This document shows, piece after piece, positions 25,777 to 62,921 of a DNA stretch of 64,000 bases. The notes beneath the pieces were generated by a model. That model saw nothing but the letters and a program-made list of their open reading frames with translations, had not been told where the DNA came from and did no database searches. The stretch comes from Chromatiales bacterium. GTDB taxonomy: Bacteria > Pseudomonadota > Gammaproteobacteria > SpSt-1174. The stretch spans positions 62,001 to 126,000 of the forward strand of contig JABURS010000032.1 in assembly GCA_014762505.1 (NCBI GenBank). The letters run 5' to 3'. Numbering within the stretch: the stretch's first letter is position 1; the number at the start of each line of letters is the position of its first letter. The translations under genes were made by a program, and so were the position numbers.

Positions 25777-26742
25777 TCATTCCGCCGTACAGTTGCGTCC
25801 CTGCTGCTTGGCCCGGTACAGGGCCTGGTCGGCGCGGGCGATGAGCTGGTCGGGGGAATCGCCGCCGACCATGGCGGCCAGGCCGATGGAGAGCGTCACC
25901 GGCGGCAGGGCGGTATCGTCGTGGGCGATGATGGGCTGGTCGGCCACGGCCTGATGCAGGCGGGCGGCGACCTTGTGCGCCTCCACCAGGTCGGCACCCG
26001 GGAGGATCACCACCAGCTCCTCGCCACCGTAACGCACCGCCATGTCGCTGCCGCGCAGAGCCACCAGCACCGCGGCGGCCACGGCCTTCAGGGCCTGGTC
26101 GCCGGCCACGTGGCCATGCTGGTCGTTGTACTGCTTGAAGTGATCGAGGTCGGCCACCAGCACCGACAAGGCCCGCTTGCGCAACTGGGCACGCGAGATC
26201 TCGAAGGCCAGGCTCTCGTTGAGCCAGCGACGATTGTACAGGCCGGTGAGCGGGTCGGTGGTGGCATGCACCCGGTACTCCTGCTGCAGGCGCTGGGCCG
26301 AGTGGATCACCAGGTTCAGGTTGGCGATGCGCCGCGCGTAGAGCTGCAACAGGTTGCAGGCGAAGGCCTGGCTCTGCCGGAACACACCCCACAGGGAGCC
26401 GGCGGGGAACTCGATCAGGCGGCAGTGCGTGTCGGCACGCGCAAAGGCCGAGGCCGGCTGACCGGTCACCACCGACATGTCCCCCACCACATCGCCGGCC
26501 TCCAGCAGCGCAATGGCGTCGCTGTCCAGCTGCGTGTGGACGGAGACCCGCCCCTCGAGCAGGATGAAGACATAGGGACTGTGCTGGTCCTTCTCCAGCA
26601 GCACGTCCCCCGGGGCCAGCTCCCGCACGCTGGCCTCCTGCAGGCAGGGGGCGATCTCGGACGCCGCCACGCCCTGGAAGAGCGCGAGTTCGCCGAGGGC
26701 ATCGAGGTAGTCGATGGCGCCGGTTTCCCGGGTTGTGCTCAT
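25777..26742 (-). CDS. diguanylate cyclase with N-terminal cyclic-nucleotide-binding domain
   Basis: This 321-residue protein has two domains. Residues about 17-135 form a CRP-like cyclic-nucleotide-binding fold (FILLEGRVSVHTQLDSDAIA, LEAGDVVGDMSVVTGQPASA). Residues about 160-320 form a GGDEF domain with TTDPLTGLYNRRWL, VADLDHFKQYND and the active site RYGGEELVVILPG. An RxxD inhibitory site (RGSD) lies five residues before GGEEL, so feedback inhibition by c-di-GMP is likely. It makes c-di-GMP, possibly in response to a bound nucleotide. The protein has no membrane segment. It may act in the same signalling sphere as the HD-GYP regulator at 59171. Confidence 0.93.
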   Translation of the reverse strand: MSTTRETGAIDYLDALGELALFQGVAASEIAPCLQEASVRELAPGDVLLEKDQHSPYVFILLEGRVSVHTQLDSDAIALLEAGDVVGDMSVVTGQPASAFARADTHCRLIEFPAGSLWGVFRQSQAFACNLLQLYARRIANLNLVIHSAQRLQQEYRVHATTDPLTGLYNRRWLNESLAFEISRAQLRKRALSVLVADLDHFKQYNDQHGHVAGDQALKAVAAAVLVALRGSDMAVRYGGEELVVILPGADLVEAHKVAARLHQAVADQPIIAHDDTALPPVTLSIGLAAMVGGDSPDQLIARADQALYRAKQQGRNCTAE

Positions 26743-26966
26743 GTGGTGGTGCCCGTGGGTCGATCGTTGTTCTTGTCGAACTTTTCGCCGATGTTACGCG
26801 CCCTGCCGCCGGGTTCGCCCCCTTTCCCGGACAGGCGGCGAAATAAATGTGATGAACGTCACGCTTTGCCTTCTCTGCGTGAACCGGCCCAGGCCCCGGC
26901 CGCAGACACATAAGGGCTCGCTAATACAGGCCATTGTCAAGCCCCTGAAACGCAAATTTTTCCGGC

Positions 26967-26975
26967 TTATGCACA
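26967..26975 (+). promoter_or_regulatory. DnaA box (TTATGCACA)
   Basis: Exact match to the 9-mer consensus TTWTNCACA, left of the AT-rich stretch. Confidence 0.5.
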
Positions 26976-27143
26976 GTCTGCATCACCGGGTCAAGGGCTT
27001 GCATGAATACGTATCGCAGGGCGCGCATCCGCGCAGGCAACAACGCAACCGGTTGTTTTTTATACAAAATATAGTTTGGCTATTTTTTGACCAGTTTAAC
27101 GCCCATGCAACATACGCCGGCCCGGGACGGATTTTGCGACAAT

Positions 27144-27178
27144 GTATCCACAAAGTTATCCACAGGTTCTGTGGACAA
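27144..27178. promoter_or_regulatory. cluster of three DnaA boxes
   Basis: GTATCCACA (27144-27152, one mismatch), TTATCCACA (27156-27164, the perfect R1-type box) and, inverted, TTGTCCACA (27170-27178, one mismatch) lie within 35 bases. The last two form an inverted pair around AGGTTCT. Confidence 0.6.
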
Positions 27179-27236
27179 GCGGAAAACCCCAAAATATCTC
27201 GGCGCTTAGCTGAACTTGTGAGAAGATACTTGAGGT

Positions 27237-29456
27237 TTGAAGACTAACTCACCCAAGCAGCCGGCGGCGCCCATCCTGCGGGTGGCCGTCCCCACGCCCC
27301 TGCCGCGCCTGTTCGATTACCTGCCGCCCGTCCGTACGCAGGATCGCATACAGCCGGGTGCGCGGGTGCGCGTGCCCTTCGGGCGGCGCAGCGTCACGGG
27401 CGTGGTGGTCGAGACGGCCGCGACCTCCGACCTTCCGCGCGAGCGCCTGAAACCCGCCAGCGCCCTGCTCGACCCGCAGGGGCTGCTGCCCGGGGACAGC
27501 CTCGACCTGCTGCGCTGGGCCGCCGACTATTATCAGCATCCCCTCGGCGAGGTGATCGCCACCGCCCTGCCCGTGCTGCTGCGCCAGGGGGAGCCCCCCG
27601 AGGTACCGGGCGTGGAAGGCTGGCGCCTCACCCGGACCGGCGAGGACACCGATCCCGCGACCCTGGCCCGCGCACCGCGCCAGCAGCAGCTGTTCGCGCT
27701 TCTCAAACGACAAACAGACGGGCTCACGGCCGACGCCATCGGCGCCGCGCTCGAGCACTGGCGGCCGGCGGCGAAGGCGCTGGCGGACAAGGGGCTGATC
27801 GAACGCGTGCAGCGCGACTGCCTGCTGGCCGCCACCGACCACCCCGCCGCCGCACCCGCGCTCAACGCGGAGCAGGCCGCCGCCGTCGAGGCGATCACCG
27901 GGGCCCTGGGCGGCTTCGCCCCCCTGCTGGTGGAGGGCGTGACCGGCTCGGGCAAGACCGAGGTCTACCTGGCCGCGATCGACGCGGCCCTGGCCTCCGG
28001 GCGCCAGGTGCTGGTGCTGGTGCCCGAGATCGGCCTCACCCCCCAGCTGCTCGCCCGCTTTCGTGCCCGCTTCGCCGTGCCCATCGCCGTGATGCACTCC
28101 GGGCTCAACGACCGCGAGCGCCTCTGTGCCTGGAACATGGCCCGTACCGGGCGCGCGCCCATCGTCATCGGCACGCGCTCGGCGGTGTTCACGCCCCTGC
28201 CGCGGCTCGGCCTGATCGTGGTGGACGAGGAGCACGACGCCTCCTTCAAGCAGCAGGACGGCTTTCGCTACCACGCCCGCGACCTCGCCCTGGTGCGCGC
28301 CCGCAACGCCGGCATCCCCGTGGTGCTCGGCTCGGCCACGCCCTCGCTGGAGTCGCTGGCCAACGCGGAGCGGGGGCTCTACACGCGCCTGCACCTGCCG
28401 AGCCGGGCCGGCGCCGCCCGACCGCCGCGGGTGCGTCTGCTGGACCTGCGCGCCCAGCCGCTGGACGAGGGCCTCGCCCCTGCGCTGATCCAGGGCGTGG
28501 CTCAGACCCTGGCCGCCGGCGGGCAGGTGCTGCTGTTCCTCAACCGCCGCGGCTATGCCCCCACCCTGCTCTGCCACGAGTGCGGCTGGGTGGCCGACTG
28601 CCAGCGCTGCGACGCGCACATGACCTACCACGCCCGCGGCCAGCGCCTGCGCTGCCACCACTGCGGCGCCGAGCGGGCGGTGAACCACCAGTGCCCGGAC
28701 TGCGGCAGCACCGACCTGCGCACCCTGGGCCAGGGCACCGAGCGCCTGGAGGCCGCGCTGAAACGCCTCTTCCCGGACACCGGCATCGTGCGCATCGACC
28801 GCGACACCACGCGACGCAAGCACGCCATGGCCGAGAAGCTCGCGGGCGTGCACAGCGGCGAGCACCAGCTGCTCATCGGCACGCAGATGCTGGCCAAGGG
28901 CCACGACTTCCCGGGGGTCACCCTGGTGGGCCTCATCGACATCGATCAGGGCCTGTTCAGCGCCGACTTTCGCGGGGCCGAGCGCATGGCCCAGCTCATC
29001 GTGCAGGTGGCCGGACGCGCCGGACGCGGCGAGAAACCGGGCGAGGTGATCATCCAGACCCATCACCCGGACCACCCGCTGCTGCTCACCCTGCTGGAGG
29101 GCGGCTACCGCGCCTTCGCCGCCCAGGCCCTGGCCGAACGCCAGGCCGCCGGCCTGCCGCCCTACGGCCACCTCGCCCTGTTCCGCGCCGAGGCGCCGGG
29201 CCCCGAGGCGCCGGCGGGCTTCCTGCAGGCCGTGCGCAACCGCCTGGGCACCACCGGGGAGGTGAGCGTGCTCGGCCCCATACCGGCGCCGATGGAAAAG
29301 CGCGCCGGCCGCTACCGCGCCCAGTTGCTCCTCATGGCTCGCGAGCGCCGCCCGCTGCATGCGCTGCTGCGCACCGTCATGCCCACGCTGGCCGAGCTGC
29401 CCGAGGCCCGCCGCGTGCGCTGGTCGCTGGATGTCGACCCGCAGGAGATGTTCTAG
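27237..29456 (+). CDS. priA: primosomal replication-restart helicase PriA
   Basis: This 739-residue helicase reloads the replisome at stalled forks. The N-terminal DNA-binding region starts VAVPTPLPRLFDYLPP. Walker A is VEGVTGSGKTEVYL near residue 230 and DEEH (VVDEEHDASFK) lies near 330. The zinc-binding insertion has eight cysteines (CHECGWVADCQRCD, CHHCGAE, CPDCGS) near 445-490. Helicase motifs V-VI are GTQMLAKGHDFPGVTLVG and QVAGRAGRGEKPGEVIIQT. The first codon is uncertain: TTG at 27237 keeps the full frame but its GAGG is too close. GTG near 27281 would start MAVPTPLP. The gene lies next to the DnaA-box cluster. Confidence 0.95.
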   Translation: MKTNSPKQPAAPILRVAVPTPLPRLFDYLPPVRTQDRIQPGARVRVPFGRRSVTGVVVETAATSDLPRERLKPASALLDPQGLLPGDSLDLLRWAADYYQHPLGEVIATALPVLLRQGEPPEVPGVEGWRLTRTGEDTDPATLARAPRQQQLFALLKRQTDGLTADAIGAALEHWRPAAKALADKGLIERVQRDCLLAATDHPAAAPALNAEQAAAVEAITGALGGFAPLLVEGVTGSGKTEVYLAAIDAALASGRQVLVLVPEIGLTPQLLARFRARFAVPIAVMHSGLNDRERLCAWNMARTGRAPIVIGTRSAVFTPLPRLGLIVVDEEHDASFKQQDGFRYHARDLALVRARNAGIPVVLGSATPSLESLANAERGLYTRLHLPSRAGAARPPRVRLLDLRAQPLDEGLAPALIQGVAQTLAAGGQVLLFLNRRGYAPTLLCHECGWVADCQRCDAHMTYHARGQRLRCHHCGAERAVNHQCPDCGSTDLRTLGQGTERLEAALKRLFPDTGIVRIDRDTTRRKHAMAEKLAGVHSGEHQLLIGTQMLAKGHDFPGVTLVGLIDIDQGLFSADFRGAERMAQLIVQVAGRAGRGEKPGEVIIQTHHPDHPLLLTLLEGGYRAFAAQALAERQAAGLPPYGHLALFRAEAPGPEAPAGFLQAVRNRLGTTGEVSVLGPIPAPMEKRAGRYRAQLLLMARERRPLHALLRTVMPTLAELPEARRVRWSLDVDPQEMF

Positions 29457-32081: not shown

Positions 32082-32189
32082 GCCACAGAGATCACAGAGA
32101 TCACAGAGATCACAGAGATCACAGAGATCACAGAGATCACAGAGGAACAACATAGCCCGGTTTACCTTTGTGTATGTGCCCTCTGTGGC
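32082..32189. repeat. CACAGAG-family inverted repeat, copy 6, with internal tandem array
   Basis: GCCACAGAG at the left and CCCTCTGTGGC at the right bound the element. The left arm has been expanded into six perfect 9-base units (ATCACAGAG) at 32091-32144. It starts 15 bases after the SPOR gene stop. Confidence 0.85.
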
Positions 32190-45998: not shown

Positions 45999-46060
45999 AA
46001 AAAACCGGGTCGGAGAGGAATCCCTTCTAATATTAAAGATTATTGCTCTCTGACCCGGGT
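45999..46060. repeat. 62-bp hairpin repeat B
   Basis: Second copy of repeat A in the same orientation, same length, with one mismatch in the terminal stem (CCGGGTCGGAG / CTCTGACCCGG). It lies 36 bases upstream of the GFA start codon. Confidence 0.85.
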
Positions 46061-46156
46061 TTCCGCTGCCATATATTCCGCCTTCGAGAAACCCAGGGGC
46101 AACATGCCGATAAACATTTGACGACCACCGTATTAGGTATACCGTAAGCTTCCCCG

Positions 46157-47014
46157 TCAAGTAGACAACCCAAAAGTAGAATCACTTGCCTGCTTGAGCA
46201 CCTCTGCCGGCGTGAGCCCGCCGAGGCTGTCGTGGTCGCGCTCTTCGTTGTACTCGATCATCCAGGCCCAGGTCAGCTCGCGCACCTCGTCCAGGTCACG
46301 GAACAGCCAGGTGTTCAGTACCTCCGTCCGGTAACTGCGGTTGAACCGTTCGATATAGGCGTTCTGATTCGGCTTGCCGGGCTCGATGTAGTCGATCATG
46401 ACACCATTGTCCTGGCACCACTGGGTGAAGACCTCGCCGAGAAACTCCGGGCCATTGTCGGTCCGCAGCACGTCCGGTAGGCCACGTTCCGCTTTGAGCT
46501 GCTCAAACACCCGCACCAGACGGGCACTCGGCAAGGATGTGTCGATCTCGATCGCCAGCGCCTCCCGGTTGAAGTCGTCGAGCACGTTGAAGGTGCGAAA
46601 ACGCGTGCCGTTGTATAACGCATCGCTCATGAAGTCGGCCGACCACACCTGATTGGGGCGCTGCGGCACCATGAGCGGCTGAGGATCCCGGCTGGGGAGC
46701 CGTTTCCTGGTGCGCGCGCCCTGGTTCAGCCGTAGGCGGCAGTAAATCCGGTGCACTCGCTTGTGGTTCCAGCGGTGGCCATGACGGCGCAAGCGCCGGA
46801 ACAGCTTCCAAAAACCCAGTCCCGGCTTCTCGGCGGACAAGGCCAGCAGCGCCTCCGCTACCGGACGGTCTCGCGCCATCCAATCGGTTAAGGGCCGATA
46901 CCAGGCCGCACGGCTAAGCCCAACGCAGCGGCAGGCCTGCCGGACGGACAGGCCCTCTTCATCGAGCAGGAACTGCACCGCTGCGCGATTCTCCGGCGGC
47001 CTTAGAGCTTTTTT
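46157..47014 (-). CDS. IS3-family transposase OrfB (expressed by frameshift)
   Basis: This is the 285-residue catalytic part in the -1 frame relative to orfA. It opens with a helix-turn-helix region (LSVRQACRCVGLSRAAWYR), then the HTH_21-like region (GFWKLFRRLRRHGHRWNHKRVHRIY). The rve integrase core carries the DDE triad: VWSADFMSD, RTDNGPEFLG and PNQNAYIERFNRSYRTE. It lacks its own well-placed start, so it is normally made as an OrfAB fusion by slippage at A AAA AAG (47014-47008). The reading frame is undamaged. Confidence 0.9.
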   Translation of the reverse strand, partial: KKALRPPENRAAVQFLLDEEGLSVRQACRCVGLSRAAWYRPLTDWMARDRPVAEALLALSAEKPGLGFWKLFRRLRRHGHRWNHKRVHRIYCRLRLNQGARTRKRLPSRDPQPLMVPQRPNQVWSADFMSDALYNGTRFRTFNVLDDFNREALAIEIDTSLPSARLVRVFEQLKAERGLPDVLRTDNGPEFLGEVFTQWCQDNGVMIDYIEPGKPNQNAYIERFNRSYRTEVLNTWLFRDLDEVRELTWAWMIEYNEERDHDSLGGLTPAEVLKQASDSTFGLST

Positions 47015-47268
47015 GCGATCAGGTTCTTCATGGCGTTGTTTTCCAGCGCCATCTCGGCGTACATGTGCTTGAGCTTCGCATTCTCCGCTTCCAGCTCCTT
47101 CAGCCGCTTCAGTTCGGAGGCGCCCAGGCCGCCGTACTTGGCCTTCCACTGGTAGTAACACGCCGAGCTGATGCCATGCTTGCGGCACACGTCCTTCACC
47201 GGCAAACCCGCTTCCGCCTCGTTCAGGATCGAAACAATCTGTGTTTCCGTAAATCGGGACTTTTTCAT
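47002..47268 (-). CDS. IS3-family transposase OrfA
   Basis: This 88-residue OrfA begins MKKSRFTETQIVSILNEAEAG. It has the HTH motif VKDVCRKHGISSACYYQWKAKYGG and a leucine-zipper-like coiled coil (ELKRLKELEAENAKLKHMYAEM). It binds the element ends and regulates transposition. It ends AKKL at 47002 just after the AAAAAAG slippery heptamer, where a -1 shift would continue into OrfB. AGGAGAGG precedes the ATG at 47268. Confidence 0.9.
   Translation of the reverse strand: MKKSRFTETQIVSILNEAEAGLPVKDVCRKHGISSACYYQWKAKYGGLGASELKRLKELEAENAKLKHMYAEMALENNAMKNLIAKKL
47008..47014 (-). promoter_or_regulatory. programmed -1 frameshift heptamer
   Basis: A AAA AAG in the orfA frame, immediately before the orfA stop, is the standard slippery sequence of IS3-family elements and joins OrfA to OrfB. 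Confidence 0.8.
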
Positions 47269-47357
47269 ATGACCTCTCCTCGTGATATTTTGCCAAATAT
47301 CCACTTCAGAGTGGTCTACTTATTGGGGAAGCTTACGATCATTCATGAGGGAGAGAG

Positions 47358-47849
47358 ATGAAAGTTATTATTGGACTTCTTCTGGCGGCATCTGTCTTTT
47401 ATATAACTCCCGCATTTTCTGAGGAGCTGACAGACGAAAAGCGTGCTGATATCGAAGAGCTACTGGAAGTGAGTAACTCGCTGGCTCTCGCTCAACAGAT
47501 GAGCGAGGCATTCAACATGCAGATGATGGCTTATCTGAAAAGAGAAAGACCGAATGTTCCGTCGCATGTGATAGAAGGTCTGACTGAAGAAATTAATCGT
47601 GTGATTAGAGAGAATCTTCCAGATTTCGTAGAGCATGTCATCCCTATCTACCACAAACACTTCACTGCCGAAGAGATCAAGCAAATGATTGAGTTCCACT
47701 CAACAGATCTCGGTAAAAAGATAGTCAGGACGATGCCCATGCTTATGAAAGAGTCTATGGAGGCCGGGCAAGCATGGGGCAGAGGGCTGGAGAGTGTTAT
47801 GGAAGAGAGAATAAGGACGAGGCTGGCGGAAGAAGGGTATCCACTCTGA
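47358..47849 (+). CDS. DUF2059 exported protein
   Basis: This 163-residue protein has a signal peptide (MKVIIGLLLAASVFYITPAFS) and the all-helical DUF2059 pattern: KRADIEELLEVSNSLALAQQM, then PIYHKHFTAEEIKQMIEFHSTDLGKKIV. The domain is periplasmic and of unknown function. Its AT content is clearly higher than that of flanking genes, with AAA/GAA/ATT codons common. It starts 20 bases from the IS end, so it belongs to the acquired block, or the IS inserted in its promoter region. Confidence 0.85.
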   Translation: MKVIIGLLLAASVFYITPAFSEELTDEKRADIEELLEVSNSLALAQQMSEAFNMQMMAYLKRERPNVPSHVIEGLTEEINRVIRENLPDFVEHVIPIYHKHFTAEEIKQMIEFHSTDLGKKIVRTMPMLMKESMEAGQAWGRGLESVMEERIRTRLAEEGYPL

Positions 47850-47933
47850 TCGCACAGAGTGGCCATTTTCCGATATGGCAGTGAGTCAGGGCATCTCCAT
47901 GCCCATTGCAGGCGAACGAGTTAAAGCAGTGTA

Positions 47934-49385
47934 TCAGCCCTTCCGCCCCGGCTTCTTCGTCACCACATGTATCGCCCGCCCCTCGATCGCAAGCGCGGCT
48001 TCGTGCACCGCCTCCGATAACGTCGGGTGGGCGAAGCAGGTGCGGGCGAGGTCTTCGGCCGAGGCCTGGAGTTCCATGGCGATGGTGGCCTCGCTGATGA
48101 GTTCGGACGCGCTGGGGCCGACGATGTGGGCGCCGAGGAGGCGGTCGGTGGCGGCGGCGGCGAGCAGTTTGACGAAGCCGTCGGTCTCGCCACGGGCCTG
48201 GGCACGGCCGCTGGCGGCGAGGGGGAAGACGCCCTTGTGGTAGGCCTCGCCAGCGGCAGTGAGTTCTTCCTCGCTACGCCCGACCCAGGCGATCTCCGGC
48301 TGGGTGTAGATCACCGAGGGGATGCAGCAGTAGTCCAGCGTGGAGGCCTGGCCGTTGATGCGCTCGACGACCATGATGCCTTCTTCCGATCCCTTGTGGG
48401 CCAGCATGGGGCCGCGCACCACGTCGCCGATGGCATACACGCCGGGCAGGTTGGTCTCGCAGTGTTCGTTGACGTGGATGTAACCCCGCTCGTCGAGCAG
48501 CAGCCCGCTCTCGGGGGTGTGGACGTCGTCCGACAGCGGGCGGCGGCCGACGGCGACGACCACGCGGTCGGTCTTGAGCGTGTGTGTCTTGCCGTCGGCG
48601 TCGGTGTAGTCGAGGCTGGCGCCTGACTTCGTGACGCGGGTGGTCATCAGCCGGCAGCCGAGGCGGATGTCCAGGCCCTGGTCGCGGAAGAGCTTGAGTG
48701 CGGTCTTGCCGACCTGGCCGTCGGCCACGGGCAGGAAGCGGTCCTGGGCCTCGAGCATCACGACCTCGGCACCGAGGCGACGCCAGACGCTGCCGAGCTC
48801 CAGGCCGATGACCCCGGCGCCGATCACGGCCAGGCGTTTCGGTACCTGGTCGAAGGCCAGGGCGCCGGTGGAGTCGACGACGACATCGCCATCCAGCGGT
48901 GCGCCGCCGAGTTCGATGGGGGTGGAGCCGGTGGCGATGATGACGTGCGCGGCGGTGAGTTCGCGGGGCTTCTGTTTGCCATGGGGGGTGAAGGCGACCT
49001 TGCCCGGTCCGAGCAGGCGGCCTGCGCCCTGCAGCCAGGTGATGCCGTTGCCCTTGAACAGGGTCTCGATGCCCTGGGTGAGGTGGTCGACCACGCCCTG
49101 CTTGCGCGCGTGCATGGCGGCGAGGTCCAGCTCGAGCTTGCCGATGCGGATGCCGTGATCGGCGCAGTGCCCGGCGGCCATCTCGTAATGTTCGCTGGAT
49201 TCGAGCAGGGCCTTGGAGGGGATGCAGCCGGCGTTGAGGCAGGTGCCGCCGAGGGCGGGCCTGCCCTCGGGCGTGAGCCAGCGATCGATGCAGGCGGTCT
49301 TCATGCCGAGCTGGGCGGCGCGAATGGCGGCCACGTAGCCGGCCGGGCCGGCGCCGATGATGAGGATGTCGTAGTCTGCGCTCAT
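47934..49385 (-). CDS. lpdA: dihydrolipoyl dehydrogenase (E3)
   Basis: This 483-residue flavoenzyme reoxidises the dihydrolipoyl groups of 2-oxo acid dehydrogenases. FAD motif DILIIGAGPAGYVAAIRAAQLG comes first, then the redox disulphide GGTCLNAGCIPSKALL (residues near 47-52). The NAD motif is VIGAGVIGLELGSVWRRLGAEV, the second FAD motif is GVYAIGDVVRGPMLAHKGSEEG, and the C-terminal catalytic HAHPTLSE-type motif appears as CFAHPTLSEAVHEA. It is the last gene of sucA-sucB-lpdA, 55 bases after sucB, and so is dedicated to the oxoglutarate complex. Confidence 0.96.
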   Translation of the reverse strand: MSADYDILIIGAGPAGYVAAIRAAQLGMKTACIDRWLTPEGRPALGGTCLNAGCIPSKALLESSEHYEMAAGHCADHGIRIGKLELDLAAMHARKQGVVDHLTQGIETLFKGNGITWLQGAGRLLGPGKVAFTPHGKQKPRELTAAHVIIATGSTPIELGGAPLDGDVVVDSTGALAFDQVPKRLAVIGAGVIGLELGSVWRRLGAEVVMLEAQDRFLPVADGQVGKTALKLFRDQGLDIRLGCRLMTTRVTKSGASLDYTDADGKTHTLKTDRVVVAVGRRPLSDDVHTPESGLLLDERGYIHVNEHCETNLPGVYAIGDVVRGPMLAHKGSEEGIMVVERINGQASTLDYCCIPSVIYTQPEIAWVGRSEEELTAAGEAYHKGVFPLAASGRAQARGETDGFVKLLAAAATDRLLGAHIVGPSASELISEATIAMELQASAEDLARTCFAHPTLSEAVHEAALAIEGRAIHVVTKKPGRKG

Positions 49386-60350: not shown

Positions 60351-62921
60351 ATGCAGCCTGTCCCCTCGTCCGATCCCGGTCTGCTCGCCCGTCTGCGGGT
60401 GCGCCTGAGACAGCGCCCCGACAGCGAGCACGAGCAGGCCCTGGTACGCATCGGCCTGGTTCTGCTGTTTGCGATCTACCTGTTCTCGCCCTGGTTCTCC
60501 GAGCTCAACGAACACACTGCCCACATCGTCGTCGGCATCGGTGTCTTCTACATCCTGGTCTCGTTCGGCATCTTCCTCTCCATCGTGATCTCGCCGGCCA
60601 TTTCGCCGCTGCGCAGGCTGATCGGCCTGCTGGGCGACATGATCGTGACCAGCGCACTGATGTCCCTGAGCGGCGAGGCGGGCACCCCGCTGGTGGCGGT
60701 GTATCTCTGGGTCACCATGGGCAACGGCTTCCGCTACGGGATTCCCTATCTGGCCGCCGGCACGGTGCTCAGCATCGCGGGCTTCAGCTATGTCTACCTG
60801 AGCACGCCGTTCTGGGCGGACAGCCCGGTGCTCAGCATCAGCATCATGCTCATCCTGGCGGTGCTGCCGATGTACATGGCGACCCTGCTGCGCAAGCTCA
60901 ATGCCGCCATCGAGCGGGCCGAGGCGGCCAACAAGGCCAAGAGCCAGTTCCTGGCCAACATGAGTCATGAACTGCGCACGCCGCTCAACGGCGTGATCGG
61001 CATGACCGACCTGCTGATGGATACCGAGCTCAACAGCGAGCAGCGGGAGCTGGCGCAGACCATCCACAGCTCCGGCGACACCCTGCTGCAGCTCATCGAG
61101 GACATCCTCGACTTCTCCAAGATCGAGGCCGGCAAGCTCACGCTCGAGACCACGGACTTCGACCTGCACGCCCTGGTGGCGAAGACCGCCGGGATGTTCG
61201 AGCACCAGGCCGAGGAGAAGGGGCTGTCCTTTTCCGCGCACGTCTCGCCGAGCACGCCCTTCCTGCTGCGCGGCGATCCGCATCACATCCGCCAGGTGCT
61301 GATCAACATCGTCGGCAACGCGGTCAAGTTCACGCAGGAGGGGCGCGTGGAGCTGCGTGTCTACGCCACCGAGCGGGAGGAGGGCGTGAAGATCCGCTTC
61401 GACGTCATCGATACCGGCATAGGCATCCGCCCCGAGGACCAGCAGCGCATCTTCGACAGCTTCCAGCAGGCGGACACATCGACGACACGCCGCTATGGCG
61501 GCACGGGCCTGGGTACGGCGATCTCGCGCCAGCTGGTCGAGCTCATGGGCGGGCGTATGGGCCTGTCCAGCGAGTACGGCAAGGGTTCGCTGTTCTGGTT
61601 CGAGCTGCCCTTCGACCTGCAGCCCGGCGTCACGGTGGACGCGACCCCGGTGGAGGCGCTGGGTACGCCGCACGTGCTGATGCTGGCCAGCGAGACCACG
61701 GCCGGCAAGCTGGCGCAGCACCTCGGGGGCTGGGGGCTGGAGTCCCGCCGCGTGGCCAGTGGTGCCCGCACGCTCGCCGAGCTGCACGCGGCCGCGGCGG
61801 GCGGCGACCCCTACACCGTCGCACTGATCGAGCGACAGGTGCTGGGGCGTTCTGCCATCGAGTTCGCGCATGACGTGCGGGCCGAACGCGCCCTGCGCCA
61901 TGTCGCCCTGGTGCTGCTGCAGCCCGTGACGGCGAGCGAGGACGACGAGGCCTGGCTGCAGGCGGGCTATTCGGCGGTGATCCATGCGCCGATCGACAAG
62001 ACGCTCCTGTTCAATGCCCTGCACGCCGCCAACTGCCAGCACGAGACCGGCGGTAACGTGGTGTCGCTGGCCGAGCAGTTCCAGAAGCGCCAGCGGGGCG
62101 GCATGCGCATCCTGGTGGCGGAGGACAACGAGACCAACCAGCAGGTGATCCGCGGCATCCTCGCGCGCGGTGGCCATCAGGTCACCGTGGTCGACGACGG
62201 GCAGAAGGCCATGGACCTGCTCGAGGACGATGCGCGGTTCGACATGATGGTGCTGGACATGAACATGCCGAACATGGGCGGCGTGGAGGTGCTGCGCGCC
62301 TATCGCTTCATGGCCCGCAGGAAACCGATCCCCGCCATCATCCTCACCGCGGACGCGACCGTGGATGCCCTGCGCGCCTGCGAGGAGGCCGGGGCCACGG
62401 CCTATCTGACCAAGCCGGTGAACGCGCGCAAGCTGCTCGAGACGATCGCCCGGCATGGCACGCCCGCCGCTGCGAGGGGCGACGACGTGCGGGAGGATCG
62501 GCCGCCCTACGGTGACGATGCCGGGGGCCGCCGGGGAAAGGGGAAGGCCGGCGCGGCGGGGGTGATCGACCGGGACATCCTGGACGGACTGGTGCAGCTG
62601 GGTTCCGGCATGGACTTCCTGCGCGACCTGATCCGCGGCTACACGCGGGACGGTCGCCGGCAGCTCGAGGGTCTGGCCGAGGCGGTACGCGAGGGGGATT
62701 ACCCGGCCTTTCAGGATGCCGTGCACGCCCTGCGCGGCAGCTCCAGCGAGCTGGGCGCCGAGCGGCTGGTCGGGCTCTGCCTCGAGGCGAGGCAGCTAAG
62801 GGCGCTGGATATGGGCGGGGAACGGCCGCAGGATCTGGCGGACCAGATCCATGCGGCGTTCGAGGAGGTCCTGCTGGCGCTGGAGGCCTATGTCTCGGCG
62901 CGACGGGATGCCATGACCTGA
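60351..62921 (+). CDS. rpfC: RpfC-like hybrid sensor histidine kinase
   Basis: This 856-residue protein has about five N-terminal membrane helices with short loops (35-185), the RpfC-type DSF sensor. A histidine kinase follows with H box [19 protein letters not shown] (His206), N box [10 protein letters not shown] and G boxes [11 protein letters not shown] and [12 protein letters not shown]. Next are an eroded receiver-like stretch (about 440-560), a receiver with Asp636 ([11 protein letters not shown]) and an HPt domain with His792 ([13 protein letters not shown]). The order HK-REC-HPt allows an internal phosphorelay to RpfG. Its stop is 11 bases from that of convergent rpfF. Confidence 0.92.

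Follow-up and report, generated by a model that had tools for sequence, protein, structure and literature searches.

ATP-DnaA recycling at DARS elements was worked out in E. coli, and most later study has concerned its close relatives. We located the two E. coli elements, DARS1 and DARS2, by sequence in strain MG1655, and the assignment of boxes I–III in them is our own reading of the sequence; on the right strand, both consist of a box, 3 bp, the box TTATCCACA, 5 bp and an inverted box. According to published accounts, the spacing of the core boxes is equal in DARS1 and DARS2, with box I opposing boxes II and III (PMC5742627), and the head-to-head box pair is essential and a hallmark of DARS (PMC10380432). 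Published work also describes a minimal DARS1 of 101 bp that is active without other factors (PMC5742627) and a DARS2 that needs IHF and Fis, in which spacing matters and extra boxes are present (PMC4245941, PMC8682772), with box V acting as a sensor (PMC8682772). DARS-like sequences in other proteobacteria are also already in print (PMC10380432, PMC5742627, PMC8682772). In the open-licence PMC literature, we found no description of the layout reported below, of its location beside priA or rpmE, or of its match to the DARS1 flank, and likewise no known priA/rpmE site, Thioalkalivibrio origin, or Legionella or Xanthomonas DARS.

The window, that is, the whole 64-kb stretch of DNA analysed here, corresponds to positions 62001–126000 of contig C32 of a 2.77-Mb genome in 43 contigs. 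Judged by PriA, which is 90% identical, its closest named relative is a metagenome-assembled genome of Thioalkalivibrio. A cluster of DnaA boxes lies in the non-coding spacer between a cNMP-binding/GGDEF protein gene (25777–26742, reverse strand; Pfam) and the divergent priA (27237–29456, forward strand), a downstream neighbour that is probably outside the element and whose identity, proposed in the first-pass annotation, was confirmed by Pfam. The box search returned the four boxes of that annotation at the same places. The distal box TTATGCACA (26967–26975, forward strand) precedes box II by 189 bp. The core, about 80 bp upstream of the priA start, comprises box III, GTATCCACA (27144–27152, forward strand), then after 3 bp the perfect box II, TTATCCACA (27156–27164, forward strand), and after a further 5 bp the inverted box I, TTGTCCACA (27170–27178, reverse strand), head to head with box II. 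Order, directions and spacing equal those that we read in the core of the two E. coli elements. The core has the three boxes, the fixed spacing and the opposition of box I to boxes II and III that are given for DARS in PMC5742627, and, as expected of a DARS, it occupies non-coding DNA in the spacer before priA.

Two further sites, which the first-pass annotation missed together with the 3-bp/5-bp spacing and a copy outside the window, lie between the distal box and the core: an IHF-like site, CAACCGGTTGTTT (27046–27058, forward strand; −110 from box II), with two mismatches to TAANNNNTTGATW, and a Fis-consensus site, GGCTATTTTTTGACC (27078–27092, no strand assigned; −78 from box II), with none. 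Both are covered by the most AT-rich stretch of the window (27039–27115, no strand assigned). The annotation had remarked on an AT-rich stretch of 60 bases between the boxes, and the six 60-base stretches tied as the most AT-rich of the window (42/60) all start within 27039–27056. GATC is missing from 26940–27236, as had been noted, with one occurrence at 26762 in the same spacer. Allowing up to one mismatch, we found 7 DnaA boxes in the window against 2.6 expected, 4 of them inside 212 bp, and this search detected no comparable cluster elsewhere in the window. By comparison, no 215-bp stretch held more than 2 boxes in 200 first-order Markov sequences, each 64 kb long, and this maximum was reached 7 times.

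We consider it fairly probable that 26967–27178 is a non-coding, chromosomal element of the DARS type, which would regenerate ATP-DnaA from ADP-DnaA. By analogy with E. coli, we infer a mechanism in which DnaA, IHF and Fis would bind the element, the DNA would fold, ADP would be released and initiation would be affected. ADP-DnaA would bind boxes III, II and I, and an IHF bend would lie about 110 bp upstream of box II. The reaction would be gated by Fis (at −78) and by DnaA bound to the distal box (at −189), both folded back onto the core, and apo-DnaA would then depart, take up ATP and be able to start replication at oriC. Fis and IHF-alpha are encoded in this genome (scores over the curated cut-offs). 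The distal box has the same direction as box II and is about 18 helical turns away from it, as would suit a loop that IHF closes. This box could be a sensor like box V of DARS2 (PMC8682772), or the site could be partly datA-like.

We compared the flank of the core with those of the E. coli sites by using a profile of the inner stretch (boxes excluded), trained without the two copies of this genome and tested on 61,808 positions (four E. coli regions). Within the window, the element scores higher on this profile than any other position. Among the E. coli positions, the IHF/Fis stretch of DARS1 ranks 1 of 61,808, compared with 2596th for the DARS2 flank, which does not fit, and on this ground DARS1 is, by sequence, the nearest known relative on the flank; DARS2 was rejected as the closest relative on its weaker flank fit. 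DARS1, in the bioD–uvrB spacer, also resembles the element in an IHF match at −111, which is degenerate, and in a box with one mismatch, although this box is at −209 instead of −189 and there is no Fis match at −78. Because the minimal DARS1 of 101 bp is active alone, the flank may be dispensable in DARS1. The comparison would point to a conserved DARS1 flank, seemingly outside the minimal site. DARS2, upstream of mutH, shares the core and has an IHF-like match at −109 with two mismatches (our assignment), but it differs from the element in its consensus box at −127 and in having no box near −190. By our reading, the Fis site of DARS2 lies beyond IHF, whereas in the window element it lies between IHF and the core. 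Set against the DARS2 subtype, in which IHF and Fis sites accompany the core, the window element shows an IHF-like match with two mismatches and a perfect Fis consensus in an order unlike that of DARS2, and both sites are conserved in the family.

The similarity to datA requires separate consideration. In a site for datA-like inactivation, the IHF bend would bring the ATP-DnaA of the distal box head to tail with that of boxes III and II, and ATP would be hydrolysed; a titration site would simply sequester DnaA. E. coli datA consists of a box, an equally directed IHF site and a box pair, in the order and directions of the element, and several near-origin copies of the element lie 2–13% of the chromosome from dnaA, with datA at about 10%. 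However, the spacings of datA differ (box at −162, IHF at −97), it has neither the 3-bp/5-bp DARS core nor a Fis match at −78, and its flank misfits the profile, its score being reached by 42 of 500 shuffles. The window site does not show the datA combination of datA spacing, head-to-tail boxes and no DARS core. We regard a datA-like or titration role as unlikely; datA was rejected as the closest relative on spacing and core. The first-pass suggestion of a titration site was right in kind, in that this is a chromosomal DnaA site other than an origin, but the layout is that of a DARS and not that of a plain titration cluster.

The same arrangement of boxes is present upstream of priA in many relatives, and in their alignment two more blocks, located between distal box and core triple, are conserved. 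Many more distant relatives have no such boxes upstream of priA. Searching without requiring the distal box, IHF or Fis, we obtained 59 distinct cores upstream of priA, of which 4 with less than 250 bp upstream were left out; the remaining 55 form a fairer set than the 115 elements described below. TTATNCACA was found at −194 to −186 in 48 of these 55 cores and was absent outside −202 to −177. An IHF match (≤1 mismatch) was located at −113 to −108 in 36/55, and a perfect A/T-centred Fis match at −80 to −76 in 18/55 and nowhere else in the 230 bp searched. At five loci (L016, L042, L045, L047 and L066), a second box cluster was observed about 270–350 bp upstream of the first, so these second clusters are tandem or partial elements before priA.

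The full pattern of the element was present in 173 of 369 genomes of Gammaproteobacteria, and the core alone in 262 of 369; the reversed control gave zero. In a phylum-wide draw, for which the split between class and non-class genomes, including the total of 261, is a hand count of rows, the full pattern occurred in 20 of 137 genomes belonging to the class and in 2 of the 261 others. We collected 115 elements: 30 loci returned by the pattern search, 80 picked by hand from the listed matches, and 5 others (the window, C32, two from G036 and one from G021). These are neither random nor phylogenetically independent, and the way they were collected means that every one has the full pattern. The distance from distal box to box II was 189–191 bp in 70 and 186–193 bp in 108 of the 115. 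IHF matches with at most one mismatch numbered 81, of which 69 fell at −109 to −112; with up to two mismatches, a match was present at −113 to −107 in 98/115 elements. A Fis match (≤1 mismatch) was located at −78 in 79/115, and the IHF and Fis peaks at −110 and −78 vanished in shuffled inner sequences. Among 20 hand-picked core-only sites, that is, sites without the full pattern, which also form a fairer set, IHF (≤1 mismatch) was found near −110 in 8, Fis at −79 to −77 in 11 and a one-mismatch box at −187 to −193 in 7, while an IHF match within two mismatches near −110 was missing in 9. In two families (f160 and f189), the distal box was about 176–180 bp from box II, as judged from match lengths, or about one helical turn under the usual 189–191 bp. 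Two viral contigs (L327 and L328) also matched the full pattern; the matches may represent host DNA, or else copies carried by phages. Since no other viral contig matched, we set aside the idea that the element came from a phage or another mobile element.

These copies also bear on the proposal of the first-pass annotation that DnaA controls priA. A cluster on which DnaA represses or activates the promoter of priA (and rpmE) would agree with the short distance, about 80 bp, between the core and the priA start in this genome and with the neighbourhoods of many copies: priA was found within 2.5 kb in 40/115 elements, always on the element's strand and with the element upstream, and rpmE was nearby in 18. 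However, 57 of the 115 were near neither gene. In 36 priA cases, box II lay anywhere between 32 bp downstream and 323 bp upstream of the predicted start, whereas the internal spacing remained constant, and E. coli has no such cluster at priA–rpmE. Promoter control is therefore very unlikely to be the main role. A promoter reading of the spacer itself was rejected, with no sigma-70-like match in the priA spacer. Other neighbours, assigned by Pfam in cluster representatives only, were genes for shikimate dehydrogenase, rRNA adenine dimethylase, UPF0093 and DctM proteins, and a predicted ORF overlapped 6/115 elements.

Box search of this genome (≤1 mismatch) revealed, among the matches listed, a second copy of the element at C32:57022–57234, between rimO and rpmE, about 32 kb before the priA copy and about 5 kb outside the window start. 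rpmE was identified by Pfam, and rimO was named from its own sequence and a Pfam match in a relative. In both copies, the distal TTATGCACA is 189–190 bp before TTATCCACA, a CCACA half ends 3 bp before TTATCCACA and an inverted box follows 5 bp after it. About 70 bp of the two copies have 81% identity. The rpmE copy has an IHF-like match at −100 and none at −110.

We further determined the placement of 28 core matches in 18 one-contig genomes, with distances from dnaA worked out by hand, some genome lengths known to 0.1 Mb only and G673 (3 contigs) left out. Fifteen lay at 2–13% and 13 at 17–42% of the chromosome from dnaA, and no core copy was found between the two zones in these genomes (G036, G021, G357, G108 and others); the near-dnaA copy was often beside priA or rpmE. 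A placement between oriC and terminus thus holds for the core matches of these 18 genomes; the genome of the window is a draft. On the E. coli chromosome, the corresponding values are about 10% for datA, 21% for DARS2 and 33% for DARS1, reckoned from oriC.

The annotation had also raised the possibility of a replication origin, with the caution that dnaA was not nearby, and dnaA is indeed on another contig (C37:74363). An oriC of this chromosome could explain why an AT-rich stretch containing an IHF-like site lies between the boxes, and the skew of the draft offers it some room, with a switch about 20 kb away on the same contig and a flat minimum without a clean switch on the dnaA contig. In two one-contig relatives, however, the GC skew switches at dnaA (G036, 574 kb; G021, 1509 kb), and the priA element is inside an arm (828 kb and 1261 kb, respectively). 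Moreover, the dnaA–dnaN spacer of this genome, dnaN being named from its position beside dnaA, carries an oriC-like box cluster, and two copies per genome are unsuited to an origin. We consider an origin at this site extremely improbable. The GC-skew check proposed in the annotation was ambiguous in the draft. Its clearest switch, from negative to positive, is near window positions 46000–48000 (C32, about 108000–110000) and coincides with a transposase gene (integrase core domain; 46157–47296), and the window search found no DnaA boxes near it. On these two grounds, the switch is likely a rearrangement or a misjoin, with an origin-like switch as a possibility. The low GC there was not put down to an rRNA operon, since the window has no Rfam match.

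A broader reading is that the element, with its distal box at −190, IHF at −110, Fis at −78 and DARS core, is ancestral, class-wide and bifunctional. It would combine a datA-like loop, in which the IHF bend connects distal box and core and which would sense ATP-DnaA, with a DARS-like head-to-head pair that would release ADP. E. coli DARS1, and perhaps DARS2 and datA, would have descended from it by specialisation or degeneration. We put this forward tentatively, as an improbable extension of the DARS reading. If it were true, one or two such sites would drive the DnaA cycle in many gammaproteobacteria, with one of them close to the origin and another roughly a third of the chromosome away. For the DARS-type element, recurrence would suggest that the DnaA-recycling system is old within the class. 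A precise, pattern-searchable layout that recurs in roughly half of the Gammaproteobacteria genomes sampled would open DnaA recycling to testing in organisms for which the origin is all that is known, and it would give helical-phasing predictions for the distal box at 189–191 bp, IHF at −110 and Fis at −78.

Several other features were observed in the window. In the spacer before the cNMP-binding/GGDEF gene, TGTGATGAACGTCACG at 26846–26868 resembles a CRP-type palindrome. A perfect 9-bp tandem repeat, CACAGAGAT, extends over 32084–32144 in 6.8 copies after the gene following argS, and similar repeat-like protein strings occur in ORFs near 25.5–25.8 kb.
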